45,662 bases of DNA from a virus, in IMG/VR virus record IMGVR_UViG_3300048838_000929, positions 1 to 45,662 of that record. One strand, 5' to 3'. How positions within the stretch are numbered: the first letter of the stretch is position 1; every line of letters begins with the position of its first letter. The notes under the pieces were generated by a model, which was not told where the DNA came from, made no database searches, and worked only from the letters and a program-made list of their open reading frames with translations. Positions 441-24,876 of this stretch are shown in pieces. The position numbers and the translations under genes are program-made.

Positions 441-890
441 TTATTTCGCTGCCATCGCTTCACGAACCGCCGCCGCAATAACCGCGCCGATATCGACAGT
501 TTTTCCGGTCGCACCGTTTCCGCGCCGGGCACGGCGCGTTTCCCATGCTTTCCGCGCACGGCGTGAAGCCTCTTCGGCGGTCGGCTTTTCAAAAATCGGT
601 TTCGCTTTCGCGGTCGGTTCGGGCACGGTCGGCACGGCGGCGGCGGCCGGTTCGGTTTTAATCCGATCGACGATTGCTTTTAACTCCGATTCGAGCCCGG
701 GCACGGCCGCGACCGATTCGAGTTTTTCGATTCGTTCGACGATAGCTTTTAACTCCGCAACGACCGTTTTAATCGTCGTTTCGTTCGTCGTTTCCGCCGC
801 TGCTACTCGCGTTTCGATCGCGCCGATTTTCGCAACGATCGTTTCGAGGGTTTTCGCAAAGATTTCGCCGTCACTTTTTTTCGTGGCCAT
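441..890 (-). CDS. Coiled-coil protein with C-terminal KAWETRR motif
   Basis: 149 aa, function unknown. The start is supported by an ACGGAG SD seven bases upstream, in the same CGAAACGGAG context as the other two island genes. Residues 8-80 look like an alpha-helical coiled coil containing two related segments, ELKAIVERI (46-54) and ELKAIVDRI (69-77). An Ala/Pro-rich linker follows, then the basic KAWETRR motif (114-120) and a short amphipathic C-terminal helix. KAWETRR is shared with the genes at 44409-44543 and 44997-45206, which makes a small island-specific family. The codons are drawn from the island's CpG-rich vocabulary and differ from the phage core. A basic helix after a coiled coil would suit DNA binding or oligomeric scaffolding of the repeat region, but that is inference. 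Confidence 0.75.
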   Translation of the reverse strand: MATKKSDGEIFAKTLETIVAKIGAIETRVAAAETTNETTIKTVVAELKAIVERIEKLESVAAVPGLESELKAIVDRIKTEPAAAAVPTVPEPTAKAKPIFEKPTAEEASRRARKAWETRRARRGNGATGKTVDIGAVIAAAVREAMAAK

Positions 891-1135
891 AATAAAAACT
901 CCGTTTCGATTTTCCCGGCCGCGCCGATCGCTGCCGTATAAATTCCGTATCGGTCGATCGTCGAAAAACTTAAGCGAATATTTCGGCCGATCGTCGGTTT
1001 TATATATACGTTATATATATTCGTCGCAAGCGAAAAAAACCGCTTGCTTTTCGCGGTCGTATCGCGTATTTCGATATTAACGGCGTATATACGTTTTATA
1101 TATCGTCGAAGCCAAAAACCGTGCCAAAGGAGGGG
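891..1135. other. AT-rich island border with TATATA tracts and hairpin
   Basis: No gene is supported here. Two TATATA-rich tracts lie about 85 bp apart (roughly 999-1022 and 1084-1108), each containing TATATACG and ending in TCGTCG. Between them GCAAGCG (1026-1032) and CGCTTGC (1041-1047) form a perfect 7-bp stem followed by TTTT, a possible plus-strand terminator. The stretch also carries the upstream region of the minus-strand gene at 441-890. Easily melted DNA beside palindromic sites and repeats would fit an origin unwinding element, but that is inference. Confidence 0.5.
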
Positions 1136-1171
1136 TGTCAGGAAATTAGACAGGTGTCAAAAATTTCGACA
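1136..1171. promoter_or_regulatory. Two tandem TGTC-N9-GACA palindromic sites
   Basis: TGTC-N9-GACA occurs at 1136-1152 and again at 1155-1171, 19 bp apart, with AT-rich centres. Further GACA half-sites follow at 1186 and 1205, keeping an 18-19 bp step. The same 17-bp architecture occurs on the other side of the island (43949-44252). It looks like an operator or iteron set for a dimeric regulator. The genome encodes two ribbon-helix-helix proteins that are candidates. TTGACA within some half-sites could alternatively act as -35 boxes. Confidence 0.6.
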
Positions 1172-1201
1172 GTGTAGTGTTCTTTGACAATTGAATAGAC
1201 G

Positions 1202-1220
1202 TTTGACAGGGAGTGTCAAA
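1202..1220 (+). promoter_or_regulatory. Palindrome enclosing the ribosome-binding site of the DUF5131 gene
   Basis: TTTGACA (1202-1208) and TGTCAAA (1214-1220) form a perfect 7-bp inverted repeat around GGGAG (1209-1213), which is the SD for the ATG at 1224. As RNA it would hold the SD in a 5-nt loop; as DNA it could be an operator related to the TGTC/GACA sites upstream. Either way it points to control of the downstream gene. Confidence 0.6.
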
Positions 1221-1223
1221 ATT

Positions 1224-2087
1224 ATGCTCGGATACGACGAAAATCAGACGCGATCATCAGGCATCGAATGGACTTCGCATACCTGGAACCCATTTGTCGG
1301 GTGTTCGATCAAAAGCGCAGGCTGCGTGAACTGTTATGCCATGGCGTTGGCTGAAAGACTGCAAAAAATGGGTCAGGACGCATACCGTGGAACGACAGAG
1401 ACTACAAAAACCGGCAAAACTGTTTGGACTGGTCGAATAAATCAGTCAAAACTCGATAAACCGGCCAAAATCAAGCAGCCGAGCGTGATTTTTGTAAACA
1501 GCATGTCTGATTTTTTCCACGAAAATGCGACTGATTTGATGCGCATGAGTGCGTTGTCAGTGATGGAGCGTGAAAATCGCCATCAGTATCAGATATTGAC
1601 CAAAAGACCGGAAAATATAGCCAAATTCATGCAGAATATGGGCATTTCCGCGTTTCCTGACAATATCTGGATTGGTGCGACCGTGGAAAGCGGCCTGGTC
1701 AAGAGCAGAATTGATGAAATTCGCAGAATTCCCGCGAAAATCAAATTTTTGTCCATTGAGCCTTTGATTCAACCGATCGGTGAAGCTGATTTCAGCGGAA
1801 TTGATTGGGTGATCTCGGGAGGGGAATCTGGACCTAATTCACGTCAAATGAAGGTGGAATGGGTGGCCGAGGTTCACGAAATGGCCAAAAAACATGGTGT
1901 TCGGCACTTTTTCAAGCAGTATGGACTGCCGCAAAACAATCCATTATGGAATGAAGCGTTGAAACTAGGAGAACATCCTGCGCGATATGTTTCGCAGAAT
2001 GATCCGATAGGAAAAGGTGGGAGCAAACTGTTTGGTGAATACGTGAAGGAATTTCCTGCAAATTTCAGTGTTGCGAACTATCAATGA
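1224..2087 (+). CDS. DUF5131 / phage Gp37-Gp68 family three-cysteine protein
   Basis: 287 aa from the ATG at 1224. A longer frame from TTG at 1191 would run through the palindrome, and the SD favours 1224. Near the N-terminus it has IEWTSHTWNPFVGC followed by C-x6-C-x2-C-Y (Cys27, Cys34, Cys37), and later LTKRPENI, IWIGATVES and ISGGESGP. These are the hallmarks of the Gp37/Gp68 (DUF5131) family, which is suspected to be radical-SAM-like because of the cysteine triplet; its reaction is not known to me. In other genomes the family often lies beside a 'three-Cys-motif partner' (TcmP) protein. Here the closest candidate is the methyltransferase-like gene at 42896-43771, the neighbour on the other side of the island in the circle. 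Confidence 0.9.
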   Translation: MLGYDENQTRSSGIEWTSHTWNPFVGCSIKSAGCVNCYAMALAERLQKMGQDAYRGTTETTKTGKTVWTGRINQSKLDKPAKIKQPSVIFVNSMSDFFHENATDLMRMSALSVMERENRHQYQILTKRPENIAKFMQNMGISAFPDNIWIGATVESGLVKSRIDEIRRIPAKIKFLSIEPLIQPIGEADFSGIDWVISGGESGPNSRQMKVEWVAEVHEMAKKHGVRHFFKQYGLPQNNPLWNEALKLGEHPARYVSQNDPIGKGGSKLFGEYVKEFPANFSVANYQ

Positions 2088-2091
2088 AAAA

Positions 2092-2116
2092 AATGCAGGA
2101 CTGAAAATCCTGCATT
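2092..2116. terminator. Strong hairpin after the DUF5131 gene
   Basis: AATGCAGGA (2092-2100) and TCCTGCATT (2108-2116) form a perfect 9-bp stem with a 7-nt loop, directly after the stop codon at 2087. On the plus strand no T-run follows; on the minus strand the stem is followed by a T-run. It may be a transcript-end stabiliser or a terminator active mainly in the minus direction. Confidence 0.5.
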
Positions 2117-2173
2117 CCATGAAATGGGTTGTAATTTGCTTATAAACCATCGAAACGGAGTCTATGCAGAATT

Positions 2174-2491
2174 ATGAGAAATTCTGAGGCAGAAATCCAG
2201 GAAATAGTTCCAATATCCGAGGTAATTCAAGCTGAAAAAGGCTATTTTTTCAGTCCTGGAGCCTTGCGTGCGTTTCGGTCCACGTATTCTGATGTTGCAT
2301 GGCGATATGCTGGTGGTTTTCTTTTCTGGACTTCAGAAAAATCGCCATCGGCAGGCTCAAAACGCCTATATTCTGTGCGTTTCATGTCAGAACAGGGGCG
2401 AGTTTGCACGATGGGCAAATTTCAGGAATTTTCCTCTGCGCGAGCTGCCGAGCTGCGAATAGCTCTTTTGCTGGCGGGAGGTGAAATTTGA
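2174..2491 (+). CDS. Small phage protein of the 'YFF...WTSE...YSVR' type
   Basis: 105 aa, function unknown. The order of motifs is GYFFSPGALRAF, then FLFWTSEKSP, then RLYSVRF, then GKFQEFSSARAAE. This resembles a widespread family of short phage and plasmid proteins with FF-x-MRFF, FVTSE, YTVR and G-x-F-x-Y segments (possibly the group labelled DUF7447). The assignment rests on motif order only. It is first in a chain of overlapping early genes, its stop overlapping the TTG start of the next one. Confidence 0.75.
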   Translation: MRNSEAEIQEIVPISEVIQAEKGYFFSPGALRAFRSTYSDVAWRYAGGFLFWTSEKSPSAGSKRLYSVRFMSEQGRVCTMGKFQEFSSARAAELRIALLLAGGEI

Positions 2492-2721
2492 AAAATCCTG
2501 AGAAATTCCACGAACAGGACAGAATGCTGGATCCGATCACCTATCACGAATTATTGCTAACGGTGCATTGCAATGAACCTGTGATCAATGCCGAGGTGGT
2601 GAAAAAGGTTTTTCGGCAAATTTTGGAATACAAGATAATTGATGCGCAGGACGCCTTGCAGCGGAATCTGCCAGGATTGGTTGAGGAAGCACTAAGGCGC
2701 AGAAAAGAGAGCGCGGGTTAG
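2488..2721 (+). CDS. Hypothetical early protein, TTG start
   Basis: 77 aa, unrecognised. The TTG start is supported by a GGAGGTG SD at about 2477-2483 and a 4-base overlap with the previous stop. The protein is mostly helical and charged and ends in a basic tail (EEALRRRKESAG). A strong intrinsic terminator follows directly, so this may be the last gene of the first short transcription unit. Confidence 0.65.
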   Translation: MKNPEKFHEQDRMLDPITYHELLLTVHCNEPVINAEVVKKVFRQILEYKIIDAQDALQRNLPGLVEEALRRRKESAG

Positions 2722-2727
2722 AAACTG

Positions 2728-2751
2728 AGGCCTGGGGAACCGGGCCTTTTT
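2728..2751 (+). terminator. Intrinsic terminator or attenuator
   Basis: AGGCCTGG (2728-2735) pairs with CCGGGCCT (2740-2747) as an 8-bp stem with one G-T pair closed by a GGAA tetraloop, followed by TTTTT. A textbook rho-independent terminator between genes on the same strand. Confidence 0.85.
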
Positions 2752-2764
2752 CTGGAGCTGGAAA

Positions 2765-3010
2765 ATGATGAATCGCCATCCTGATGTGATTCAGGCCTGC
2801 CGCGAGGTGAATCGCCTGATTCGTGATCTGGAGGACCGCGGTGTAGTGCAGAATCACGAGGAAGCGTGTTTGCGTGTATCCATGATTTTGCGCTTCGAGA
2901 GCTACAAGGAAATGTATCAGAGTTGCATGAACGCTGTTCGTGCCAAAATCGTGTTGGAGAGGATTCGGGAGCATGATGGACAGTCTCGCACAGCTAAAAT
3001 ACCTGATTGA
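2765..3010 (+). CDS. Hypothetical early protein
   Basis: 81 aa, unrecognised. GGAG lies seven bases before the first of two adjacent ATGs. Predicted all-helical and rich in Arg and Glu; no cysteine motif and no membrane segment. Its last 35 bases overlap the next gene in another frame, typical of a compressed phage early operon. Confidence 0.65.
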   Translation: MMNRHPDVIQACREVNRLIRDLEDRGVVQNHEEACLRVSMILRFESYKEMYQSCMNAVRAKIVLERIREHDGQSRTAKIPD

Positions 3011-3296
3011 TCAAATTCCAGATCCCCTGCTGAGACAGCATTTTCGGAACTGGATTCATGATCATGTGGAGTTGGTGGAAAACATTCAGCGGATTGGGAA
3101 AATCGTGGTCGATTCCTACCGCGGCAACAAGGAGGATTTGATTCGCCACGAGGAAGTGAAACTGTGCAATAAAATCGGCCTTCGTGCCGGCCAGGATTTC
3201 GTCAGGATCTCGCGCACGGAGAACAGGGAATTTGTGGTGCTGAAGGGTGTGGCGTGTGTTCTGAGGTATCCGAAACCGGAGGTGGTTGGTACATGA
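2976..3296 (+). CDS. Hypothetical early protein
   Basis: 106 aa, unrecognised. The open frame extends back to 2940, but the GGGAG at 2967-2971 points to the ATG at 2976 (or the one at 2973). The N-terminal half is helical (LAQLKYLIDQIPDP; a WIHDHVELVENIQ helix) and the C-terminal half is beta-like (DFVRISRTENREFVVLKG). No known domain seen. Confidence 0.6.
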   Translation: MDSLAQLKYLIDQIPDPLLRQHFRNWIHDHVELVENIQRIGKIVVDSYRGNKEDLIRHEEVKLCNKIGLRAGQDFVRISRTENREFVVLKGVACVLRYPKPEVVGT

Positions 3297-3327
3297 TGTA
3301 CCGCGGGGAAATTTTCAGGAGATTCAG

Positions 3328-3498
3328 ATGGCTACCAGGAAGATGAAAAGTGAAGTGGTGATTTTGAAAGTGACAGAGGACGAGAAGAAAAAATTCAACG
3401 ATCTGGCGATTGAGCATTTCGACGGGAACGTGTCAGCCCTGGTTCGATTTCTGATGAAGAAATTCGAGCAGGAGCAGAATCGCCGCAAACGCGCATAG
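3328..3498 (+). CDS. Ribbon-helix-helix DNA-binding protein
   Basis: 56 aa. The ATG at 3328 has AGGAG about seven bases upstream, so the upstream part of the frame (from 3286) is discarded. The pattern EVVILKVTEDEKKKFNDLA, then NVSALVRFLM, is that of MobC/Arc-type ribbon-helix-helix proteins: a short beta strand for the DNA groove, then two helices joined by a G-N-V-S turn. It is clearly related to the protein at 42039-42284, which shares VTEDEKK and GNVS. Likely a small transcriptional or origin-binding regulator. The TGTC-N9-GACA palindromes around the island are plausible targets, but this is not shown. Confidence 0.8.
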   Translation: MATRKMKSEVVILKVTEDEKKKFNDLAIEHFDGNVSALVRFLMKKFEQEQNRRKRA

Positions 3499-3507
3499 GA
3501 GTGAATT

Positions 3508-3762
3508 ATGGCTACGGACTGGAGGACGCTTGACCTCGGAAACCCTGAACACAGAAAGCAGCTTGTTTTGGAGCCGATTTCGTTTGAGGATTTGATAGAA
3601 GAGGCGAAAAGGATTCCTCACTCAAGTCCGCTTCGGGTTGCAGCGTTCATCAAATCACACATTCTGGAATCTGCATTTTCGATCGCTGACAGTCTGGTTG
3701 CTGGATACTGTGATCAGATTTGGGAGATTGCCGAGAGGGAGAGACAGAAAAATGGCGCCTGA
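3508..3762 (+). CDS. Hypothetical early protein
   Basis: 84 aa, unrecognised. GGAG lies before the ATG at 3508. Acidic and helical, with a hydrophobic middle (AAFIKSHILESAFSIADSLVAGY) too polar for a clear membrane helix. Its end overlaps the start of the next gene by 11 bases. Confidence 0.65.
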   Translation: MATDWRTLDLGNPEHRKQLVLEPISFEDLIEEAKRIPHSSPLRVAAFIKSHILESAFSIADSLVAGYCDQIWEIAERERQKNGA

Positions 3763-3943
3763 ACCCACAGCGGTACTTCTCTGTCGTGCGGTGGACCAGT
3801 TTGTTCTGGATCTGACGGAGGATGGGAGTTTGCCTGCTCTGCCTGAAATTACGCAGCAGCACATTCGTTCAAAGGTCGAGCGTTTTGCAGACCGTGTTTT
3901 TGAGCTGGGGTATAACCTTGGTCGAAACAACGAGCTACAATGA
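3752..3943 (+). CDS. Hypothetical early protein
   Basis: 63 aa from the ATG at 3752, within the end of the previous gene; the longer frame from 3638 overlaps that gene completely and is unlikely. Helical, ending GYNLGRNN, a pattern also seen at the end of the gene at 14366-14611 (KGYNLGIK). The shared tail suggests a short structural motif common to two phage proteins of unknown role. Confidence 0.6.
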   Translation: MAPEPTAVLLCRAVDQFVLDLTEDGSLPALPEITQQHIRSKVERFADRVFELGYNLGRNNELQ

Positions 3944-3986
3944 TGGGAGTCCCGGGACTCTGTTCTCGTGGGCGACTCTGAATTTA

Positions 3987-4025
3987 GGGGGATTGGGGTT
4001 TCGGCCTCATTCCCCCGACCAATTT
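3987..4025 (+). terminator. Hairpin with T-run; perfect palindrome just upstream
   Basis: GGGGGATTGGGG (3987-3998) pairs with CCTCATTCCCCC (4005-4016) with one mismatch, and TTTTT lies at 4023-4027. At 3947-3960 the 14-bp sequence GAGTCCCGGGACTC is a perfect palindrome that starts four bases after the stop of the preceding gene. Together they form a terminator or attenuator block before the gene at 4040. Confidence 0.6.
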
Positions 4026-4039
4026 TTAGGGGTAAATCT

Positions 4040-4291
4040 GTGGTTAGGACTTTGGAAGAGGAAGTCGATTTTTTCGACGACGACGACCACGAAATAAACC
4101 TGCTGGTGGAATACCAGTTTGAGCGCCGGAAACTGCCGGAAGGTGATGAGTGGGGATATCTGGGTTATCGAATAATCCGGGCCTGGCTGGATGGGGAAAA
4201 AATCGAGCCTGGCCGTTTGACGGGAAGCCAGCGGGCCAGTGCTCACAACGAAATCTGTGCGAAGAAACCGGACACTCGATTGCTGGACTGA
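4040..4291 (+). CDS. Acidic hypothetical protein, GTG start
   Basis: 83 aa. GTG at 4040 is chosen because AGGGG lies eight bases upstream; the frame is open back to 3968 but that part crosses the terminator-like hairpin. The N-terminus carries a run of acidic residues (EEEVDFFDDDDHE), followed by a beta-like segment (EWGYLGYRIIRAWLDG). No family recognised. A structured untranslated region follows. Confidence 0.55.
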   Translation: MVRTLEEEVDFFDDDDHEINLLVEYQFERRKLPEGDEWGYLGYRIIRAWLDGEKIEPGRLTGSQRASAHNEICAKKPDTRLLD

Positions 4292-4312
4292 GAGAGTTTT
4301 GGCGAGTCCAGG

Positions 4313-4429
4313 AGGGAGGCAACCCTGCAGGCGAAAGGTCTGTGGGTTTTTCCTGTGGGTGCCTCCCAAGGACTCATGGCAACCACGCAGGAGGTGGGCC
4401 ACTGCGTTAGATTGTACCACCCCCTGCCC
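4313..4429 (+). ncRNA. Candidate structured RNA (two long hairpins)
   Basis: No convincing gene lies in 4292-4685 on either strand. Two strong stems occur in it. GGGAGGCA (near 4313) pairs with TGCCTCCC (near 4368) and continues inward with CCC/GGG and CAGG/CCTG around an A- and T-rich loop. Then GCAGGAGGTGG (near 4389) pairs with CCACCCCCTGC (near 4429) with one mismatch. Plus-strand frames across the region are rich in Trp, Cys and Arg and look non-coding. It could be a small regulatory RNA or a long leader; orientation is assumed from the neighbouring genes. The remaining 4430-4623 shows nothing clear. Confidence 0.4.
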
Positions 4430-4623
4430 CCCAACCTATCCAGGTCTTTTTGACTTGGTATGTTTGGAGAACCGGGTTTCGGGAAGGCAGGTCCGAATTT
4501 TTCGATTCAGACTGCAATCCACTGCGAAAAATCCTTCCCAGGCTGGACGCGGCTTTCGAGGAAATCGCCTCGAGCTCACCTTATGGCCGTCTATCATCGG
4601 GTGCTGTTCCATGTCTGATTCCC

Positions 4624-4654
4624 AAAAAAAAGGACCGGGGAAAATCCCAGGTCC
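4624..4654 (-). terminator. Minus-strand intrinsic terminator
   Basis: GGACC-GGG (4632-4640) pairs with CCC-GGTCC (4646-4654). On the minus strand the stem is followed by eight Ts (4631-4624). It lies 32 bases beyond the stop of the minus-strand gene at 4686-4949, marking the end of a short opposing transcript. Confidence 0.75.
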
Positions 4655-4685
4655 CAAGAGACAATCCCTTGCCATCTGTACCGTG

Positions 4686-4949
4686 CTATTTTTTCAGGTT
4701 CAGAAAGCACTGGCTAGTGTCGGGCAGGAAGGCCTCGAAAAAAACATCCAGTGCGAGGTAGGCCGCATCGTCGATGGGAGTGGCGGTTTCCTTCGCCTTT
4801 GCTTTCAGCTTGGCGATAATTTCGTCCTTCTGAGCGCGAACCACAGGCACGAGAAAGCACTGGATCTGGTTTGCGAGTTTTTCGACGTTTTTCTGTGTCA
4901 GTTGTTTGAGCAGGAATTCGACCACGATTCCGATTAGCCAATCTTTCAT
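4686..4949 (-). CDS. Lone minus-strand small protein, possibly membrane-associated
   Basis: 87 aa, starting at the ATG at 4949 with GGGGG six to nine bases upstream; an open frame extends further upstream to 5096 but the SD favours this start. The N-terminus (DWLIGIVVEFLLKQL) is a hydrophobic/amphipathic helix; the C-terminal half has KLKAKAKETATPIDD followed by LALDVFFEAFL, a pattern seen in small phage holin-like or holin-associated proteins. It is the only minus-strand gene inside the early region and has its own TATAAT promoter element (4977-4982) and terminator (4624-4654). This looks like an independently regulated 'moron'-type unit. Function unproven. Confidence 0.65.
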   Translation of the reverse strand: MKDWLIGIVVEFLLKQLTQKNVEKLANQIQCFLVPVVRAQKDEIIAKLKAKAKETATPIDDAAYLALDVFFEAFLPDTSQCFLNLKK

Positions 4950-4976
4950 TTGAGCCCCCAAAGTGTTGGTGCTCCT

Positions 4977-4982
4977 ATTATA
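4977..4982 (-). promoter_or_regulatory. TATAAT -10 element for the gene at 4686-4949
   Basis: A perfect TATAAT reads on the minus strand about 28 bases upstream of the ATG at 4949. The -35 region at the expected distance is poor (no TTGACA), so strength or regulator dependence is uncertain. Confidence 0.5.
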
Positions 4983-5438
4983 CCGTAGATTTGTATTGGC
5001 ATGTTTGCCGTGCGGAATCCGGCAGGAGTAAAATGGAGTTTGCGTCCTCGGTTTGGCTAATTCAAAAAAACGCACGGTCAAATAATTGGCAGGCAAGGGC
5101 TGTAAAAAATCGAGAGGCCGGAAAACTTGTTGAAATTTTTCCCGGCCTCACTCATTTTTCGATCTGAATTTTGATTGATTGCGCAGTTTAAAAAAATTCG
5201 TTGTCCAAACGAAAAACCAGAAACCAGAGCTGATCTTGAAAGTTGTCCAGGCTTTAGATCTACCCTTTGCGTTTCGCTTCGGAGAAAGCAAAATGCTTTT
5301 GTGCTTCTATATCGCCGATGATTCGGCGTCAATGAATTTTCAATCCTCCCAATCAAATTTTCAAGCCTTTTATAATTTAAATGTACGCCATACCCAAAGG
5401 GTGTTTGCGAAATCCTCCAGTCGTTTCGGAGGTGTGGC
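4983..5438. promoter_or_regulatory. Divergent regulatory region before the replication gene
   Basis: This gene-poor region of about 450 bp separates the minus-strand gene from the plus-strand replication gene. GAGGCCGG (5114-5121) and CCGGCCTC (5142-5149) form a perfect 8-bp stem with a 20-nt loop followed by T-rich sequence. A plus-strand TATAAT is at 5371-5376, and the GGAGGTG SD of the next gene is at 5428-5434. The A+T-rich stretch around 5330-5385 could be an unwinding region, since phage initiators are often encoded next to their origin. Open frames within it start at TTG without an SD and are not supported. Confidence 0.5.
5371..5376 (+). promoter_or_regulatory. TATAAT -10 element for the replication gene
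   Basis: A perfect TATAAT followed by an A/T-rich discriminator 62 bases upstream of the ATG at 5439. The sequence 17 bp further upstream does not match TTGACA well. Confidence 0.45.
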
Positions 5439-6488
5439 ATGAGTGCAGCGCCTGCCGTCAAATTTCACAAGCGATCCAACGCGCTCCGCTCTGAATCCAA
5501 ATCCCGCGGCAATTTCGCAATGGTCCCCAAGGAAATCCTTCTGAAAAAGTGGCCTGCTGCCCGGTTCAGAATCTTTACCTACATCCTTGCATGTGCAGAC
5601 GATGCACTGATCTTTTCCTGGACGCTGGCTAGCGAACTGAACCTGTCGCGTTCGACAGTGATCGGTGAAATTAACTGGCTCGTGCGCCATGGGTATCTGG
5701 GTGTCCGCAAGGTTGGGATTAGATGTCCTGACGGATGGCGCGATGCGCATACCTGGGATGTGCTGCCGTCCTCTTCCTGGCGTGAAAAGGCTGAAACCCC
5801 GTCGCGCACCCGCATCCAGAAAACCGGACACGAGCCAGAATTACCTGAAAACGAAAATCCTGATTCCACGCAGGTTTGCGAACCGCAGTGTCAATCGCCC
5901 ACGTCCAGGAAACTGGACACTTTAAAAGACAGAAGAAAATATAAATCCAAAACTAAAGGGGGGAAATCCGCGGGCAATAAAATTGCCCCCCGTGACAAGG
6001 CGAGTGAGGTCACTCCTATTCGTCAAAAAATCACACTCGATTCCCTGGATGCCGATATGAGCGCAGCGATAGACGGACGCGCCATGGGATGCAGGGAACG
6101 GGAGAAGTTTCTGCGAACCCACCTGATCCAGAGATTCAGCCGCGATCAGATTCAGATGGTGATGCGGTGGCGCTCTGGACCGAAAGCGAATTTCTTCATC
6201 AGAGAATTTGGTTACGAATTTTGGCGACCTGCCTATGAATACCAACGCAAACGCTATTGGGACAATCTGCGCAGCCTGGACTACTGGGCACAGCTTATCG
6301 AGCTGGCGAAAACCGAGGCTGGGGTTTCTGAACCTGCCGCGGTCGAGGCCGAACCTGCCCCATCCAATCCCGAGCCTTCAGAGCCCGATTCCCCCCCTCA
6401 GCAGTCGCTTTGGGAATTGCCACTGCCCACGCCAGAGGAAGAAGCCGAAATGCGGGCTGCGTTCCTGGCTGCGATCACGAAGGGGTGA
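5439..6488 (+). CDS. Helix-turn-helix replication protein
   Basis: 349 aa with a GGAGGTG SD and ATG at 5439. Residues about 28-95 contain a winged helix-turn-helix of the kind found in phage replication initiators (HTH_36 type): an ARFRIFTYILACAD helix, then LASELNLSRSTVIGEINWL as the turn and recognition helix, then HGYLGVRKVG as the wing. The middle (about 120-200) is basic and low-complexity. A second folded region (about 205-290) follows, then a Pro/Glu-rich C-terminus (about 295-335). This matches replisome organisers: N-terminal DNA binding and C-terminal recruitment of host helicase or loader. No helicase gene was seen nearby, so host machinery is probably recruited. Confidence 0.75.
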   Translation: MSAAPAVKFHKRSNALRSESKSRGNFAMVPKEILLKKWPAARFRIFTYILACADDALIFSWTLASELNLSRSTVIGEINWLVRHGYLGVRKVGIRCPDGWRDAHTWDVLPSSSWREKAETPSRTRIQKTGHEPELPENENPDSTQVCEPQCQSPTSRKLDTLKDRRKYKSKTKGGKSAGNKIAPRDKASEVTPIRQKITLDSLDADMSAAIDGRAMGCREREKFLRTHLIQRFSRDQIQMVMRWRSGPKANFFIREFGYEFWRPAYEYQRKRYWDNLRSLDYWAQLIELAKTEAGVSEPAAVEAEPAPSNPEPSEPDSPPQQSLWELPLPTPEEEAEMRAAFLAAITKG

Positions 6489-6492
6489 GCCC

Positions 6493-6633
6493 ATGGTGAC
6501 AAAACAGCCCAAGCCATTCCATCATATTCCTGAGCGGGATCGGGTGAAGCCTGGTCCTCAGAAAAAATTCGTGGACGAGCTGATTAGGAAACTGACAGCT
6601 CCCGAGCCGAAGAAGAAGGAGGGGGAAAGGTGA
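6493..6633 (+). CDS. Small basic hypothetical protein
   Basis: 46 aa, ATG at 6493 with AGGGGTGAG upstream; the reading frame upstream belongs to a shadow of the replication gene. Very basic, with Lys/Pro-rich ends and one short helix (KFVDELIRKL). Its stop overlaps the GTG of the next gene. No family recognised. Confidence 0.55.
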   Translation: MVTKQPKPFHHIPERDRVKPGPQKKFVDELIRKLTAPEPKKKEGER

Positions 6634-6887
6634 TTCATTTTTTCATGCGATTTTTAGGCGGAAGTGGGGCAGGCGTGGTGGCTGGTCTGCCAGCGTTTCT
6701 GCTGTCAGCGTCGAGGGAGGAATGTGGCGGGAAATGGGTGGTTGGATTTTCGGAATCTTCAACCACGAACCGGATCACCTGTCAATCCTTCTCGGACTCG
6801 GAAGCAGCACTGCGTGCGATTTCCAACAAGTGCCGCCTTGGGTCAATTGTACGCTACGTTCGTTTTGAGCGGGAGGCCGGCGCATGA
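6630..6887 (+). CDS. Hypothetical protein with hydrophobic N-terminus
   Basis: 85 aa. The GTG at 6630 overlaps the previous stop and follows a GGGGGAAAG SD; the ATG at 6645 is an alternative. Residues about 3-27 (FMRFLGGSGAGVVAGLPAFLL) could be a membrane segment or signal. The remainder (GKWVVGFSES; SEAALRAISNKC) is a compact alpha/beta stretch. Unrecognised. Confidence 0.55.
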   Translation: MIHFFMRFLGGSGAGVVAGLPAFLLSASREECGGKWVVGFSESSTTNRITCQSFSDSEAALRAISNKCRLGSIVRYVRFEREAGA

Positions 6888-7069
6888 AAGGTGAATCGTC
6901 TGAACAGTTTCTGCGTTTGCTCGATATTGGCTGGACCGCTCTGGCGGTGGTTTTCCTGCTGACGATGTATGGCGTGTCGCTGCGTGTGAAAAATCCGCAT
7001 CTCAGTGATCGTGAAATTCATTCCCGCGTGATTGGCTTTTTCTTTGAACACGGAGGCGAGACGCCATGA
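6884..7069 (+). CDS. Small single-span membrane protein
   Basis: 61 aa, starting in a 4-base ATGA overlap. One clear membrane helix (WTALAVVFLLTMYGVSLRV, about residues 17-35) with a cytoplasmic or periplasmic tail of about 25 residues. No family recognised. Part of an overlapping chain of five genes from 6493 to 7712. Confidence 0.65.
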   Translation: MKGESSEQFLRLLDIGWTALAVVFLLTMYGVSLRVKNPHLSDREIHSRVIGFFFEHGGETP

Positions 7070-17733: not shown

Positions 17734-18813
17734 TTAAGAAGTCCTATAGATTTGATATCCATGATAGTCGATTAAAAATCCTTTAGATGTTGCAAGACCA
17801 ACAAGTCCTATTAACTGTGGACCATAAACAATATTTGCAGGCATCAATGGTGCAAAGTTCGATAGGGTTGCAATCAAAACATCATTGACATAACCTTGAT
17901 AAGTTATCGACCCGACGTTAAGTGTTACGACAATCTTAACTTTCATTGAGTTTGTTCGTGTCGCATCAAAAGTCGTATCGACCCAGGTGGAATTATTGTT
18001 GGCCGTTCGTGTTCGCCAGTACCATCGGTTGGTCGTTGGTGCAATTCCATTGCATTGTATGCCAAACCAAAAATCATTCGATTGATACGCATCATCATTT
18101 AAGCCAAAAGCAGAACCAGGATTAAGACCCTCAAAGAAAGCTGAGTCATTAACAGATTGAAGGTCGTTGTGCATTCCAAGCTTAGAATGAAAAACTATCT
18201 TTTGAATGGGCAAAGCCACCATGGAGCCGCCATTCGTGGAAAACGAAAATCCATTTGAGGATATGCCGCTTCTTCCGCCCTGTCCGGTCACTAGAAATTG
18301 TAGCTGGCCCCATGCTTGGCGAAGAATATCCCATCCTGCTGAATGCTGAACAGATGCCGATCCGCTGGAATACATATTTCCCATGGCTTTGGTATATATC
18401 GGGTTGGTCCCTTGGTAGGTCGCGTAATCATCCCATTCAGAAATTATAAGCGGTTCGAGAGGTTCACCACCACCGCCGCCGCCAGTTGGCGCATCAATCC
18501 ACTCGACATCGTAATCTGTATCGCTCGCTTTCGCTGCGATCTGCCCTGTCGTGCCGCCAGGAGCCAAACCAGGACCAGCGGGACCTGTGTCGCCAGTTGC
18601 ACCTGCGGCACCGGCAGGGCCTTCCGGGCCTTGAATATTTCCCTGGAGTGTCCACGTTCCGGCAATCAGTTCGTAAATATCTCCCGTCGCAGTATCAAGA
18701 TAATGATCACCATTCGCCTGACCGGAAATAGTACCAGGAGCACCGGCATCGCTATACCAGCGCGAACCAGGACCGCCTCCACCTCCACCTCCACCAATTA
18801 TCGCCAAAGTCAT
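17734..18813 (-). CDS. Tail fibre with collagen-like segment
   Basis: 359 aa. N-terminal Gly-rich start (IIGGGGGGGGPGSRWYSDAG), then a short domain (DHYLDTATGDIYELIAGTW), then collagen-like G-x-x triplets (about 59-85, GPEGPAGAAGATGDTGPAGP), then GGTTGQIAAKASDTDYDVEW, a motif common in phage fibre proteins. A second Gly run leads to a C-terminal about 240-residue beta-sandwich-like domain that is probably the receptor-binding part. The G-x-x segment should form a trimeric stalk. The two possible glycosyltransferases encoded upstream could modify it (inference). A+T content of the C-terminal part is higher than in its neighbours, suggesting recent domain exchange. Confidence 0.8.
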   Translation of the reverse strand: MTLAIIGGGGGGGGPGSRWYSDAGAPGTISGQANGDHYLDTATGDIYELIAGTWTLQGNIQGPEGPAGAAGATGDTGPAGPGLAPGGTTGQIAAKASDTDYDVEWIDAPTGGGGGGEPLEPLIISEWDDYATYQGTNPIYTKAMGNMYSSGSASVQHSAGWDILRQAWGQLQFLVTGQGGRSGISSNGFSFSTNGGSMVALPIQKIVFHSKLGMHNDLQSVNDSAFFEGLNPGSAFGLNDDAYQSNDFWFGIQCNGIAPTTNRWYWRTRTANNNSTWVDTTFDATRTNSMKVKIVVTLNVGSITYQGYVNDVLIATLSNFAPLMPANIVYGPQLIGLVGLATSKGFLIDYHGYQIYRTS

Positions 18814-19301
18814 GCGCTCATCTCCCAGTGCTTTGAAAGCTGACGACGGAATTCAAAAATCGCGTCCACATACGCCTGATTCTGAAATTTCCCATCGTCA
18901 GTCAGTTTCACGTTTCCTGCGTTATAGGCGCAAAGCGCCTTTGCGATATCGTTGTTGTATCGCTCCATCTGGTAGAGAAAATATCGCACGCCATGATCGA
19001 ACGCCACACGTTCTGCCCAGCAAAGGCTCATCAGCGGTCCTTTGAAACCCTGCCAGCGTGCGGTCCCTCCCATCACCTGAAGCAGCCCATAGGAAAACGA
19101 CTGGAGCTGCAATTCAGTCGCAAAACTGATATTCAGCTCCCGCGAGTTTTCCTTCACCTGCCACGGCCACTGGTAGCCAGATTCAAACCGCACTGCCCAT
19201 GGATCCAGCGCACTTTCGCGCATCGCCATGGCCAGAAGTGTTTCCCTGATTTCGCGCGGAAGTTCCCGCGTCCAATCCTTGATGCGTGCGATAATTTCCA
19301 T
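18810..19301 (-). CDS. Lytic transglycosylase (SLT family), candidate endolysin
   Basis: 163 aa. Catalytic region MAMRESALDPWAVR (Glu29), then SYGLLQVMGGTARWQG (about 70-85) and ALCAYNAGNV (about 122-131) followed by NQAYVDAIF: the ES-GLLQ-AYNAG series of soluble lytic transglycosylases, which cleave peptidoglycan glycan strands. No signal peptide. It lies in the tail-fibre cassette with 4-base overlaps on both sides, so it is either the endolysin or a virion-associated lysin. It is the only peptidoglycan enzyme I recognised in the genome. Confidence 0.85.
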   Translation of the reverse strand: MEIIARIKDWTRELPREIRETLLAMAMRESALDPWAVRFESGYQWPWQVKENSRELNISFATELQLQSFSYGLLQVMGGTARWQGFKGPLMSLCWAERVAFDHGVRYFLYQMERYNNDIAKALCAYNAGNVKLTDDGKFQNQAYVDAIFEFRRQLSKHWEMSA

Positions 19302-19951
19302 TACGTCCTCAAAATATTGCTTTCAGTGAAGTCTGGCAGAAACGCGCGTTTTTTTGTGCCGAGTTTCGCGTGGAGCTGCGCACCAATGCTGTCCTGCTGG
19401 GTTGGCTGTGGCAGTCCGCCATTCGCTTTCAGCCACGAGTAGACGAAACCGGAAACACTGATTTCCTGTGGCGAAGCAGGATTCCAGACACGCAGGCCTC
19501 CAGGAAGCGTGGTTTCGGTTCGGCTGGCAGGAACACTCAGCGCCGCCGCTGCTTCAGGAGACAGAAGGCTTGACCAGACAGTGTTGCCAGTATCGTCCTC
19601 AGAAATCGCCTCGGAAATTGCACGCTGCCAGTTGTTGTCCTCGGGAAACGTAAGGCCTGGATAGTAGACAACGATATCGCTTGGCTGCGCGGAAATCACA
19701 TTCTGCAAAACCCAATTGAACGCATAAATAGCGTCGGAATTTGCTGGCGCCTCGCAGTAGCGAATGCGGTTGCGCTCGCATTTGCTCACAAGTAGCTCGC
19801 GGGCCTCTTCAGGATTCGCGTCTGGGTAATTCAGATTCACAAAATAATCAGCCGCACGAAACGCGCGTTCGCGGGTTGCTATGAGCTGATCCAAAGACTG
19901 AATCAGTTTCTCCACAGGTTCCTTGCCAACGATTACAACGCGGGTATTCAT
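19301..19951 (-). CDS. Possible glycosyltransferase-like protein in the fibre cassette
   Basis: 216 aa. Layout is Rossmann/GT-A-like: VVIVGKEPVEKLIQSLDQL at the start, a region with many Asn/Ala (NSDAIYAFNWVLQNV), then SDIVVYYPGLTFPEDNNW where a GT2 enzyme would carry its D-x-D. The metal-binding Asp pair is not clear, so activity is uncertain. It overlaps the GT9 gene by 4 bases, suggesting they act together. Identification is tentative. Confidence 0.45.
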   Translation of the reverse strand: MNTRVVIVGKEPVEKLIQSLDQLIATRERAFRAADYFVNLNYPDANPEEARELLVSKCERNRIRYCEAPANSDAIYAFNWVLQNVISAQPSDIVVYYPGLTFPEDNNWQRAISEAISEDDTGNTVWSSLLSPEAAAALSVPASRTETTLPGGLRVWNPASPQEISVSGFVYSWLKANGGLPQPTQQDSIGAQLHAKLGTKKRAFLPDFTESNILRT

Positions 19952-20943
19952 ATCTGACTCCTGAGCTGAGAGAGGAAAAAGGGAATTTCCTCTGGTGATG
20001 GAAGAATCCGCTGCATCATCTCCGGCGTGCAGAATTCGATGGAAACCTCGTCTTTCTGTACCGGCGACCAGCTCATATAATTATAGAGCCCATCGTGGCC
20101 AAAGTCTTTCATGCGCCAGCCGAATTGCCCTTTGCGCCAGTGATACAGGAAATCCGGATGCTTGCAGCTCGCCACAAATGCGATAAAGGCCTCGCCAGCG
20201 GCAGCAATATGAATCGGGCTGGAATCGTTGGTCACAACGAATTTGCAGCCTTTTAGCAATGCCACCAATTCTGATACAGAAAGCTGATCACGAAGGTCGA
20301 TCACATCATCCCGAACGATCGGCACATATCCCAGGGTTTCATCCACGTTTTTCCCAATCAGGCAAACGTCGAAACCATAAAAATGCAGGCTGTCGATCAC
20401 TGAATTCCACCACTCAACCGGAAACGTCTTCGACTGCCAGTGGCGCCCTGCGTGGACAACAACCAGATTTTGCTTGTGCCTCAGAACATGGTGAATAGGC
20501 GAGCTCGCGTCCAGATCAAATTCTGGAAGGCGAACCTGCTTGGCGGAATTAGGGAGCTGGCAACGTAAAGTGGAAACTGAAATGTAGTCCACGCAATGAA
20601 GCAATGGGTGAGTGTAAAACTCCCAGTTCAGACTTCTGACGGGACGAATCGTATCGAGAACATAGAAATCATTTTCGTCAACTTCCCCTGGTCGATAAGC
20701 ACGGCACGGGAGATGCGAAAAAAGTTCAGGCATATCAGTCTGAATCGAAATCGAAACACTGAGGAAATTCTGGATCGCAAACGCGATAACAGGCTCGGCG
20801 CATACAACGTCACCGAGCCCGCCAGGAAGCTTGAAAAGCCAGCGTTTGTCAGTTCCACGCTGGAGAGCATGAAAGACCCGAAAACTCGGAATCTCCCATG
20901 CAGGAATTGTTGCCTTGTCAGATGGCGTAGGGATTGGGTTCAT
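19948..20943 (-). CDS. GT9 (heptosyltransferase-like) glycosyltransferase
   Basis: 331 aa, close to the family length. Motifs of GT-B heptosyltransferases: WLFKLPGGLGDVVCAEPVI (GGLGD 41-45), VVVHAGRHWQSKTFPVEWW (162-178, like HPGS...KRWP), and VVTNDSSPIHIAAAGEAFI (236-254, the D-S-x-x-x-H-I-A-A nucleotide-sugar site). Family members transfer heptose or related sugars onto LPS core. In a phage it could modify host surface LPS to exclude competitors or decorate the phage's own fibre. Being between the RCC1 tail protein and the lysin, with overlapping ends, it is co-expressed late with the fibres. Confidence 0.85.
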   Translation of the reverse strand: MNPIPTPSDKATIPAWEIPSFRVFHALQRGTDKRWLFKLPGGLGDVVCAEPVIAFAIQNFLSVSISIQTDMPELFSHLPCRAYRPGEVDENDFYVLDTIRPVRSLNWEFYTHPLLHCVDYISVSTLRCQLPNSAKQVRLPEFDLDASSPIHHVLRHKQNLVVVHAGRHWQSKTFPVEWWNSVIDSLHFYGFDVCLIGKNVDETLGYVPIVRDDVIDLRDQLSVSELVALLKGCKFVVTNDSSPIHIAAAGEAFIAFVASCKHPDFLYHWRKGQFGWRMKDFGHDGLYNYMSWSPVQKDEVSIEFCTPEMMQRILPSPEEIPFFLSQLRSQI

Positions 20944-22271
20944 TTCACGTATTCCAGTACCATGATGTTATAGCCGGAATTGTGGCAGATGATTTCGTTT
21001 CCGAATTTCACGACACCAGCTCCGACCGTGATTGCGTAGGAAGTGCCAGGGGTCACGTCCACATATTCTCTTGCCACCGCAATTTTCGAGAAATTTGTGT
21101 CAAAACGCTGGTTGCCAACCATCTGAACTGGCGAACGCTGAATAGTGGTTGTTCCGTTACCTATAGCGCCGTCGAGGTTGTCACCCCAAACCCACAATGT
21201 TCCGTCAGCCTTCAGACCTGCATAGAAAAAATCGCCTGCATTGCAGTGGATAAACGTATGCCCACCTATAACAGCGGTCGGGCTGGAAACCTCCGTGTAA
21301 CCCACATTTCCAACACCCAACTCGCCATCGAGGTCCAAACCCCATGCCCAGGCTGCGCCACTCGAATCCAGGCCAAGGACCATGTTGGATCCGCTCGAAA
21401 TGTGCATCCACGTCGCAGGTCCTGCCACCTGTGTCGGCGTGCTCCGACTCCCGCTGCCAGGAATTCCCAGCTCCCAACTTCCATTGGATCCAGCCGCATA
21501 AAGCGTCCCGTCGTCCGCCAGAAAAAACGATGTGCTGGCGAGGGTGGCGGAAAGCATCTTCCACGTCTTGGCAGGAGTCGTCACCTGCACAGGAGAACTG
21601 CGGGTGGTTGTATCACCGAGGCCGAGCTGGCCGTTTGCGTTGTATCCCCAGCCATAGGCATTGCCAGCCTCACTGATTGCCATGGACCAGTCGGAACCCG
21701 CTTCGACGAATTTAAACTTCAGATTGTTCAGTACACGAACCGGCGTGCTTTTGGCCACGTTCGTCCCATCGCCAAGCTGGTAAGAGCTGTTGTTGCCCCA
21801 TGCCCATAGATAACCGTCCTGGTCGATTCCAAGGCTGTGAGTGCCGCCGCCTGCCACCATTTTGAAACGAACCCCGGTGGCCACCTGAACAGGAAATGAT
21901 TTGTTGGAGCCTGAATTGTCACCAAGGCGACCGTTCAGGCCGGAACCCCATGCCCAGCACCGTCCCTGCTCATCGAGAGCAAAGAAGTGATAGCCACCGT
22001 TTGCCACGCTTTTGAATTTCGGCCAGGGATTTGTGGGAATCACAGGCGAACTTTTCGACGCCGTTGTGCTATCACCCAATTCGCCAGAACCACTGTACCC
22101 CCAAGTCCAGAGCTGCCCGTCCTGCCCGAGAGCTAGCGAGGTTGAAAAACCTGCGCGGATTTTCTGGCTCAATTCCCGTGAATCAAAAACCGAAACCAGG
22201 ACTTTTGTCACGCCGCCTGGAGCTGTCCAGTTGGAATCGGCCGAATACTGCTTGATAATGCGGTTGCTCAT
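20940..22271 (-). CDS. Tail-tip protein with seven RCC1-type propeller repeats
   Basis: 443 aa. Seven repeats of the W-x-WG-x(3-5)-G-x-LG type (for example LWTWGYSGSGELGD, CWAWGSGLNGRLGD, YGWGYNANGQLGLGD, LWVWGDNLDGAIGNG) predict one seven-bladed RCC1 beta-propeller. The flanks are not RCC1: the N-terminus (SNWTAPGGVTKVLVSVFD) and C-terminus (YVDVTPGTSYAITVGAGVV) are the two halves of a Gly-rich phage fibre-tip domain (normally a T-x-PAGVTKV half and a PGTSYxVTVGAGG half). The propeller thus seems inserted where that domain's glycine-rich loops would be. Likely receptor-binding or adhesin-like. Confidence 0.85.
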   Translation of the reverse strand: MSNRIIKQYSADSNWTAPGGVTKVLVSVFDSRELSQKIRAGFSTSLALGQDGQLWTWGYSGSGELGDSTTASKSSPVIPTNPWPKFKSVANGGYHFFALDEQGRCWAWGSGLNGRLGDNSGSNKSFPVQVATGVRFKMVAGGGTHSLGIDQDGYLWAWGNNSSYQLGDGTNVAKSTPVRVLNNLKFKFVEAGSDWSMAISEAGNAYGWGYNANGQLGLGDTTTRSSPVQVTTPAKTWKMLSATLASTSFFLADDGTLYAAGSNGSWELGIPGSGSRSTPTQVAGPATWMHISSGSNMVLGLDSSGAAWAWGLDLDGELGVGNVGYTEVSSPTAVIGGHTFIHCNAGDFFYAGLKADGTLWVWGDNLDGAIGNGTTTIQRSPVQMVGNQRFDTNFSKIAVAREYVDVTPGTSYAITVGAGVVKFGNEIICHNSGYNIMVLEYVK

Positions 22272-22283
22272 GATTGCCTCCGT

Positions 22284-22781
22284 TTAAATGAAGAACCAGT
22301 CCGTTCCGTCAGAAACGATCGTCCATTTGCCCCAATTTGCCTCAAGCGTGTAGTTCGCCGCCACACCTTCAATTTTCTCGCTGCCTGCCCGAGCCAGGGT
22401 AATGGCGTTCGTCCCTGCCTGACCGGTCTTGTCCTTCATTGTGAAGCGTAGGCCTGATGCCGGCGTCGGCAAATTTATTGTTCTGGCTGCACTGGTGTCC
22501 ACCAGCAGAATCGCTCGCGTATCCGCGGCCGTCAGCGTCAGAGGCGAGGAACTGACTGCCGTCACAGGCTCGTCAGTAAGCGCGATAACGTCGTCTGTCA
22601 CTTCCTCGAAATACTTGTTCCAGGCGTCCTGAGTGTTAAACAGCCAGTTGAAGTGCGAGGCATACGGCGCCTCCAAATCAGCCCAGCCGGCGATCTGTTT
22701 TGCTCCAGATGGCTGGATTACGTTCGTTCCAGGATCAGGGTTTGACACGCACCATTCCAGGTGATCTGCTGGCTTTACCAT
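22284..22781 (-). CDS. Tail fibre-type protein
   Basis: 165 aa. N-terminus with PDPGTNVIQPSGAKQIAGW and FNWLFNTQDAWNKYFEE, then a beta domain with ILLVDTSAARTINLPTP, FTMKDKTGQAGTNAITLARAGS and WTIVSDGTDWFFI, typical of phage tail fibre C-terminal regions. Position between baseplate gene gpI and the RCC1 protein suggests it links fibre to baseplate. Confidence 0.7.
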   Translation of the reverse strand: MVKPADHLEWCVSNPDPGTNVIQPSGAKQIAGWADLEAPYASHFNWLFNTQDAWNKYFEEVTDDVIALTDEPVTAVSSSPLTLTAADTRAILLVDTSAARTINLPTPASGLRFTMKDKTGQAGTNAITLARAGSEKIEGVAANYTLEANWGKWTIVSDGTDWFFI

Positions 22782-22785
22782 TTAT

Positions 22786-23373
22786 CTAGCTCCTTCTGAG
22801 TAAAGTTGGAAATTTACCGCTGCCAAATCCTGCGCTCGGGATGTCAGGATGCGTCGATGGGCCAAACAGAAAACTCGGTCCTGGATCGGCGTAAAAGCCA
22901 AGTGTGTCGAGCGCCACACCCGCGAGAATCGCTCGCTGGATGTTATCGTACAGAAAATCTGGATCGCCTGTTGGATCTGCTCCGTCAGACATCAGGGAAA
23001 TCGAGCAAACGTCAAGGCGCTGAAAGTGGCAAACATCAGCACCCGTGATCAGTTTGAAAATCGCCTTGATCGCCACAGGATCACCCTGCGAGTTGTTGAT
23101 TGCGATTTTGACCAGAATCAGAACGCGGTAAAGATCATCTGAATAACCGAGGCGGGACTGGCCAACGGTATGGCCGATTTCGTCAAGCTGCACACCAGAC
23201 GCGTCCTCGATCCATCGGTTATCGTTCCAGTCAATCGCCGCATCCTCGATTTCCTGGAGGCCTGTTACAAATGAAGTCAGAAAAGCCTGGAAATTAGGCT
23301 TTTCCTTGTACCGCTCCAAAATCCGCGCCAGGGCCTCGGCTACGTGGTCTGTGTTATGAATGATTTCCGCCAT
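22786..23373 (-). CDS. Baseplate wedge protein, DUF2612/gpI-like
   Basis: 195 aa. GVQLDEIGHTVGQSRLGYSDDLYRVLILVKIAINNSQGDPVAI is the DUF2612 signature. The N-terminal helical part (ALARILERYKEKPNFQAFL) fits the gpI role of joining baseplate wedge to fibres. Encoded directly after the baseplate J gene, the standard order. Confidence 0.85.
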   Translation of the reverse strand: MAEIIHNTDHVAEALARILERYKEKPNFQAFLTSFVTGLQEIEDAAIDWNDNRWIEDASGVQLDEIGHTVGQSRLGYSDDLYRVLILVKIAINNSQGDPVAIKAIFKLITGADVCHFQRLDVCSISLMSDGADPTGDPDFLYDNIQRAILAGVALDTLGFYADPGPSFLFGPSTHPDIPSAGFGSGKFPTLLRRS

Positions 23374-23376
23374 GCC

Positions 23377-24876
23377 TTACACCACCGTTACGTTAATAGT
23401 GATGCGGCTCGTGTCAAACTTCGCACGCTGGCTGTTGGAAATCGTGATGTTATCGCTGAGAGTAGGCAAAGCCGCTGTTCCGATTTTGACCGTCACATCC
23501 ACGATGCCTGGATAGTCCTCGTCGTTGTTCAAAACGCTAACCAGTTTCGGGAAGACGATCACGTCGTCACCCACCTGAAGATCCGCACCCCATTCCACGA
23601 TTGCCGCCTTGATATCATCAGCACCACTGGAAATCGGGAATTCATCGGTCACGTCGATATCGAGAATGATATGGATATCCACTTCAGTCGGCCGCGAGAA
23701 TTTCATTGTCTGGTTGAATCCATCCTCGTCAACATGGATAACTGTTTCCGTGCCGTGCGTGGCGATCCCACCTCCCACTGCCTTCCACAGTTTTTCGGCG
23801 ATTTCTGCATCAGTTCCGCCTTCCACAACCGCCTCCACAGAATTAGGAGGCCGACCATCGCCATCGACGATTTTGGTTTTGTTGATATAAACCGTGCAAG
23901 AGGTCACGTCCTCCAGCTCCAGGATTTTCGCCTTGATTGCCTCGGGAGTACCGGCGCCTGCTTTTGCAATCTGCTGGACACGCCTGATTTTCAGTTCCGC
24001 ATCCGATTCAGGTTCCAGCCCCAAGGTCGCATCGAGAGGGTTGGTGACAGAATCCCAGCCCGAAACTGCAGTTTCAATCACAGTCAGCTTTCCTGCCAGC
24101 GCAATCGTCGCTCCCACGGATTCAGCAGTCGCGGTGCCTGTCCCATTCGGGAGAGCGCCAGGGGTGGTTTCCGCTATCGAAGGAGTGATATCACCAACCG
24201 CCACACCATCCGAACTGAGGGTGTTGGATCCCACCGTTATCAGCTCCTTGGGTTGCTCCGCATCGGCACCAGCAAACGTGACCACGAAACCTGCGCCGAC
24301 CGTTCCCGTGACGTTAACTGTATTTATGGTGGAAAGTGCTTCCAGAGCGGCCTTTACCGCTGCGGCCGAAACGTTATGCGCCAAAGCCGATGTGGACTCG
24401 CCATCGAAAACGAGCGTGAATGTTCCACCGACAGGGGTTCCGCTGAAAGTGATGGTCTGGACTTCTGAGGTTCCTGCGCCGATCAGGATATCTGCGTCAG
24501 TCACGAATCGCGCATCAGTATTGTCCTCGACAGAAACCACGGAAAGAGCTGGAACAGTCGTGCCGGCTGTTCCGATACATTTGATTCCCACCGTGGATTT
24601 TGTACCCTTCTGCTTCACGATGCCGTTATAAGCCACCGCGTTCTGCAGCGATACATCCTCTGCCCAACGAACATAGCTCGCGTTATAAAGCTGCTCAAAC
24701 AATTCCCACAACAGCGATTCACGCTCTGAGTAAATGCCCACGAGCTGACCAAAAGGCCCGCGTGGGTCCAAATCAATTCCGGCACCAAAAATGCCTTGTA
24801 GAGCTGCTTCCTGCTCAAGCTTGATATCTGCCAGACGCTTGGGAACAAAACCCGCAGGGGTTACACCATAAACCAT
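23377..24876 (-). CDS. Baseplate J-like protein with inserted repeat domain
   Basis: 499 aa. The N-terminus (GAGIDLDPRGPFGQLVGIYSERES) and central/C-terminal parts are those of baseplate J wedge proteins (family usually about 350-400 aa). The extra length is an insertion at about 118-225: ITFSGTPVGGTFTLVFDGES, SAAAVKAALEAL, VNVTGTVGAGFVVTFAG, a known Ig-like or surface repeat of about 85 residues seen in phage structural proteins. It may expose a surface-binding patch on the wedge. Confidence 0.85.
   Translation of the reverse strand: MVYGVTPAGFVPKRLADIKLEQEAALQGIFGAGIDLDPRGPFGQLVGIYSERESLLWELFEQLYNASYVRWAEDVSLQNAVAYNGIVKQKGTKSTVGIKCIGTAGTTVPALSVVSVEDNTDARFVTDADILIGAGTSEVQTITFSGTPVGGTFTLVFDGESTSALAHNVSAAAVKAALEALSTINTVNVTGTVGAGFVVTFAGADAEQPKELITVGSNTLSSDGVAVGDITPSIAETTPGALPNGTGTATAESVGATIALAGKLTVIETAVSGWDSVTNPLDATLGLEPESDAELKIRRVQQIAKAGAGTPEAIKAKILELEDVTSCTVYINKTKIVDGDGRPPNSVEAVVEGGTDAEIAEKLWKAVGGGIATHGTETVIHVDEDGFNQTMKFSRPTEVDIHIILDIDVTDEFPISSGADDIKAAIVEWGADLQVGDDVIVFPKLVSVLNNDEDYPGIVDVTVKIGTAALPTLSDNITISNSQRAKFDTSRITINVTVV

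Follow-up and report, generated by a model that had tools for sequence, protein, structure and literature searches.

The window analysed here is the whole of an IMG/VR virus record, 45,662 bases long. It carries genes for a portal, a terminase, a tail sheath, a tape measure, a baseplate hub, baseplate J and a DUF2612 baseplate protein, a set that identifies the virus as a phage with a contractile tail. Immediately behind the genes for baseplate J and the DUF2612 protein, and on the minus strand like them, lies a gene for an RCC1 protein nested between the two halves of a fibre domain. The features of this region are as follows.

19948-20943, minus strand: GT9-family glycosyltransferase (PF01075), linked to RCC1 genes across loci
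20940-22271, minus strand: nested RCC1 protein, 443 residues, probably a fibre tip (intact reading frame, Pfam RCC1, AlphaFold2 model, 86% identical copy in contig L001)
20943-21086, minus strand: C-terminal half of the predicted TNF-like base, residues 396-443, five strands (alignments, AlphaFold2, HMM)
21105-22166, minus strand: seven-repeat RCC1 beta-propeller, about residues 36-389 (Pfam, repeat HMM, match to UVR8 with Z 26.8)
22182-22271, minus strand: N-terminal half of the predicted TNF-like base, residues 1-30, strands 4-9, 13-16 and 23-30 (alignments, AlphaFold2, HMM)
22284-22781, minus strand: upstream short fibre, 165 residues, to which the nested protein presumably attaches; the C-terminal domain of this fibre is also found ahead of ordinary Gly-rich tips (L004, L050)
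22786-23373, minus strand: baseplate protein (DUF2612 in Pfam, baseplate in PHROGs)
23377-24876, minus strand: baseplate J-like protein, baseplate wedge (Pfam, PHROGs)

The start codon of the GT9 gene overlaps the stop codon of the nested RCC1 gene. Farther along the same gene run, downstream of GT9, are a 216-residue protein of unassigned function (19301-19951) and a transglycosylase (SLT) domain protein (18810-19301, minus strand), and the protein at 17734-18813 has weak tail-fibre PHROG matches. The nested RCC1 protein lies within a tail-fibre and baseplate module, the location characteristic of phage receptor-binding proteins.

A single intact open reading frame, whose ATG is preceded by GGAGG, encodes the protein. 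Pfam finds seven RCC1 stretches in it (PF00415, E=4.8e-54) and a repeat HMM likewise counts seven, spanning residues 37-381, which agrees with the seven RCC1-like repeats read from the sequence in the first-pass annotation and makes up a closed propeller of about seven repeats. The 330 residues given there for the distance between the end motifs must be corrected: the separation is 379 residues, and the RCC1 part occupies about 345-355 of them. The copy in L001 keeps an identical gene order. Between it and the window protein pN is 0.10 against a pS of 0.70, with synonymous sites near saturation, and pN is uniformly low across both ends and the propeller. These values indicate a genuine reading frame that purifying selection strongly constrains.

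The ends carry one conserved motif each, WTAPGGVTKVLV at the N end (residues 15-26, positions 22194-22229) and VTPGTSYAITVGAG at the C end (residues 406-419, positions 21015-21056). Their nearest counterparts lie in contigs L004 and L050, phage contigs in which a fibre domain 57% identical to that of the window's upstream gene stands ahead of a tandem pair of ordinary Gly-rich tip genes (L004:4232-5702 and L050:3872-5351). Since the upstream fibre domain is shared, these ordinary tips occupy the same gene position as the nested protein. Aligned with the window ends, the L050 and L004 proteins score 54-72 at the N end and 57-70 at the C end, and none of 2000 shuffles scored as high. The L050 match is not circular, because that contig was retrieved solely through its upstream fibre gene. 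The C end of the more distant nested protein in L048, taken alone, was not significant against L004 and L050.

HMMs of the two ends, built from 28 nested proteins (the distinct loci, the window and tandem copies), also recover ordinary Gly-rich proteins. With the C-end HMM these have E values of 8e-6 to 2e-2, while shuffled decoys reach 0.63 or worse; the C-end test is not circular, as the loci were not picked on the C-end motif, and the N-end test is partly so for L006-L036. Alignments, AlphaFold2 and HMMs agree in placing the WTxPxGV and VxPGxxYxV strands in that order on a beta-sandwich framework, as in tips of the Pam3 gp24 type. The split-domain search proposed in the first-pass annotation thus succeeded with HMMs of the ends, which find Gly-rich phage proteins, and fell short in Pfam: Gly_rich_2 (PF21722) gave nothing with the intact protein and 19.2 bits, against a cut-off of 24.3, with the ends joined by a poly-G spacer (E=1.3e-3). 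Assignment of the joined ends to a Pfam or PHROGs family was considered and rejected as too weak, PF21722 appearing only with the poly-G spacer and phrog_863 at an E value of about 1e-3.

The structural models locate the insertion. In an AlphaFold2 model built on three nested sequences (mean pLDDT 60.8; 63-87 blockwise in the end domain), the two ends fold into one beta domain whose strand order equals that of the canonical tip. Its strands run at residues 4-9, 13-16 and 23-30, then, after the propeller, at 400-405, 411-415, 419-423, 426-431 and 435-442. A model of the ordinary tip of L004 (mean pLDDT 49) has strands at 4-9, 14-17 and 24-30, a glycine loop at 31-52, strands at 53-59, 65-69, 89-91 and 95-97 and, after a long glycine region, a last strand at 236-242. 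With the order equal, the propeller falls in the first loop, which joins strand 3 to strand 4, and the other glycine-rich regions have been reduced to turns of three residues. The stacked distal glycine-rich loops of Pam3 gp24 were not found in the nested protein, which has the propeller or three-residue turns in their place.

Among solved structures the L004 model comes closest to the Pam3 fibre (Z 15.5 over 177 residues; Foldseek E 9e-5); next are a tail-tip protein of mycobacteriophage Bxb1 and, from ALK and LTK, the TNF-like glycine-rich domains. The search list of the nested model itself is filled by RCC1 chains, and the Pam3 link of its ends runs through the canonical L004 model. UVR8 aligns to the nested model with Z 26.8 over the propeller only, residues 36-389; in this model the ends are neither blades of the propeller nor an unrelated domain, the two outcomes named in the first-pass annotation as refuting it, and form a separate, tip-like one. 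Bacterial PLL-type lectins also match the propeller, with a score of about 24 and 10% identity, a likeness that may reflect only the common seven-bladed form. These models support the view that what is conserved as the base is a TNF-like beta-sandwich, as in Pam3 gp24, rather than the glycine lattice itself.

The spacing of the end motifs leads to the same site. They are 362-533 residues apart in nested proteins. Of 17 ordinary proteins, 16 have them 26-42 apart, and in the remaining one, L023, the value of 283 seems to come from pairing motifs of two domains in one repeated protein. This difference indicates that all nested members share one insertion point. The first-pass annotation had supposed that a propeller stands where ordinary versions have glycine-rich loops, and spacing and strand order uphold this for the first glycine loop. 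The remainder of that picture is modified, in that the base is a TNF-like sandwich and the protein belongs to a family rather than being a single oddity.

The conserved end stretches are short, about 17 and 18 residues, and the ends of intact nested proteins have no match in Pfam, PHROGs or NCBIfam, as might be expected if they were linkers flanking an ordinary RCC1 protein and had come to resemble Gly-rich tips by convergence of short motifs. The shuffle and decoy tests and the equal strand order argue against this, as does an alignment of 24 members in which the end motifs are invariant, with P18 and V21 at the N end and V406, P408 and G409 at the C end among the invariant columns. Furthermore, the upstream domain is shared with ordinary tips, and RCC1 fibres that lack these ends score nothing. 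Convergence is therefore highly improbable, and the two ends are best read, as first proposed, as halves of one Gly-rich-type fibre-tip framework.

Scans that took in neighbouring genes revealed 28 nested proteins at 25 distinct loci, the window included. Three sets appear to be copies of one sequence (L066/L067/L068, L075/L076 and L062/L083), and 24 distinct loci, L001 and L048 among them, remain besides the window. A GT9 query returned 34 loci, in 28 of which a nested RCC1 gene lies directly upstream. L048 came from searching with the upstream fibre domain; its nested protein is 36% identical to that of the window, and the gene order is kept. Across the nested loci that order is short fibre, nested RCC1 protein, GT9 glycosyltransferase. 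The HMM counts six to nine repeats in nested members; on these sequences blade number may vary within the family, and low counts could be missed repeats. Three loci (L054, L069 and L072) have tandem pairs of nested RCC1 genes, which could provide alternative or mixed tips. Other searches returned few nested proteins. A DNA pattern joining WTxPxGV to W.WG repeats gave, among viral contigs, only L001 as a nested case, the rest being ordinary Gly-rich or chance matches. Run on 84,980 species genomes, it gave one chance match (L046), although so strict a pattern may pass over nested genes there. Against isolated phages, tblastn with the RCC1 protein returned only RCC1 fibres without nested ends.

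Relatives of the upstream fibre tie the protein to the tail. The nested protein of L061 has a fibre domain of its own at the N-terminus, which shares 63% identity with the upstream fibre that L073 encodes as a separate gene, and in L072 there are two long fibre-fused nested copies. The L061 fusion is good evidence that fibre and nested protein work together in the tail. Some related upstream fibres also match the N-terminal domain of T4 gp9/10 weakly, just under the Pfam cut-off. A location in the tail is well supported by these observations. The PHROG matches of the window protein (4219, 7220 and 16766) nonetheless fall under DNA, RNA and nucleotide metabolism, the PHROGs category of phage RCC1 proteins, and the phAPEC6 paper suggested a role in ordering packaged DNA (PMC7247149). 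A protein whose RCC1 part acts on DNA or chromatin-like structures, its ends being incidental, is scarcely credible at this position: the gene stands between fibre and glycosyltransferase genes in the nested loci, beside baseplate genes in the window, it is fused to a fibre in L061, and its base has a fibre-tip fold. The tail context argues for a tail function against the PHROGs category, and a tail-tip reading is available for phage RCC1 proteins filed under DNA metabolism.

The GT9 neighbour matches PF01075 at E=2.5e-13, and its nearest solved structure is 1PSW (E=5.6e-5). Against the equivalogs for LPS heptosyltransferases I, II and III its best score is 32 bits with a cut-off of 170, so far below that its substrate cannot be named. 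The gene is present in three nested contigs chosen not only through GT9. Contigs that carry ordinary Gly-rich tips lack it, as do five that have other RCC1 genes, and in isolated phages the enzyme had no match. Remote relatives in L078 (5293-8012) and L081 (80-3712) are fused to an apparent GT8-type domain, and each fusion lies directly before an RCC1 gene without end motifs. This suggests that the enzyme is partnered with the propeller and not with the base. Across loci, the pairwise distances among GT9 proteins and those among nested proteins are correlated (r 0.64; none of 2000 permutations as high), as expected for genes inherited together. The steady link, which extends to these two non-nested RCC1 genes, points to a directly testable enzyme-adhesin pair.

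These findings are best explained by a model, to which we give a probability of about 0.7, in which the protein is the distal tip of the tail fibre of a contractile-tailed phage, with an RCC1 propeller in place of the first glycine loop and a receptor-binding function. The observations above show the split base, the site of the insertion, the order of the genes and, in relatives, fusion with the fibre: the two ends pair to form the TNF-like beta-sandwich that is the base of Pam3-type fibre tips, and a complete seven-bladed propeller stands in the loop that follows strand 3, which is glycine-rich in ordinary tips. The first and last strands of the propeller are adjacent in its closing blade, which would let it hang on the loop without disturbing the base. 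Three subunits would most likely sit non-covalently on the 165-residue fibre, their propellers turned towards the host surface, with the propeller faces binding the receptor; the name adhesin presumes this last step. The neighbouring GT9 enzyme may modify the propeller or the host glycan that it contacts, the least certain step of the model. If the model is correct, a common type of phage fibre tip can exchange the part that touches the host for a whole propeller at a fixed loop, and is not limited to point changes there.

Fast-changing tips are typical of receptor-binding proteins. The faster propeller change expected of an arms race was not found, close pairs having a dN/dS of 0.054 in the propeller and 0.044 in the ends, and this is a real gap in the argument for receptor binding. 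Strong, uniform purifying selection without excess change in the propeller would suit a propeller that caps the tail tip for structure or protection, or that decorates it as an accessory with weak glycan binding. The host-specific contact would then fall to a different fibre, such as the protein at 17734-18813 with its weak tail-fibre PHROG matches; the tandem copies likewise suggest dispensable or additive roles. In Pam3 gp24, however, loops like the replaced one are the proposed points of host contact (PMC9608196), and the tail fibres of PollyC and Littlefix terminate in RCC1 propellers, so that such a cap or decoration is unlikely. A receptor-binding tip remains the preferred reading.

A comparison with known systems shows which parts are shared. 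The Pam3 cyanophage fibre gp24 (PDB 7YPX), which combines a TNF-like and a glycine-rich domain and whose loops are proposed to bind the host (PMC9608196), has the same base, as judged through the canonical relative. Gp24 further possesses a helical shaft, and its six loops hold 12 glycine-rich motifs; the nested protein, in contrast, has no shaft, a propeller in loop 1 and turns for the other loops. The Gly_rich_2-like ordinary tips of L004 and L050 have homologous ends and differ in their short glycine-rich loop (26-27 residues between motifs in the best-matching copies) and in the lack of GT9 on their contigs. UVR8, human RCC1 and the HERC RLDs share the seven-bladed fold at about 25% identity, yet are eukaryotic and serve other functions. 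We know of no eukaryotic RCC1-family protein inserted in a fibre domain.

Phage RCC1 proteins have been detected as virion components by mass spectrometry in GAP32 and W70 (PMC5259590, PMC11370258), and very long RCC1 repeat proteins occur in other phages too. Clostridioides phage LIBA6276 (L045) encodes a 1627-residue RCC1 protein (619-7011) between tail-fibre genes, with a protein annotated as glycine rich a few genes beyond. Other phage contigs (L052, L089 and L090) have RCC1-repeat open frames of 1950-2445 residues, preceded in L052 and L090 by a gene for a 168-residue protein.

Enzyme-adhesin pairs are known from TibA/TibC and AIDA-I/Aah, autotransporter adhesins glycosylated by a heptosyltransferase (PMC4358343). 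An adhesin accompanied by a heptosyltransferase-like enzyme is no more than a suggestive parallel, since the substrate in those pairs is an autotransporter, whereas modification of the tip in the nested loci is hypothetical. A tentative and rather doubtful extension would make the TNF-like base a plug-in socket whose first loop carries whole binding domains, here an RCC1 head of about seven to nine repeats with a dedicated GT9 enzyme glycosylating the propeller, the phage counterpart of these autotransporter adhesin and heptosyltransferase pairs.

In a literature search that covered mostly journals outside subscription, no account of an RCC1 propeller inside a TNF-like fibre tip was found, nor any paper combining RCC1 repeats, phage and receptor-binding protein. 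Known related cases are PollyC gp38, SeaP2 and Littlefix gp88 of Pseudomonas phages, in which an RCC1 propeller is likewise part of a tail fibre; in PollyC gp38, which has a T7 fibre N-domain, and in SeaP2 it stands at the end of a T7-type fibre. These propellers are fused end to end at the C-terminus, are not nested and have no TNF-like ends. RCC1 at tail-fibre ends was already known in isolated phages, and what is new here is its insertion inside a TNF-like base.
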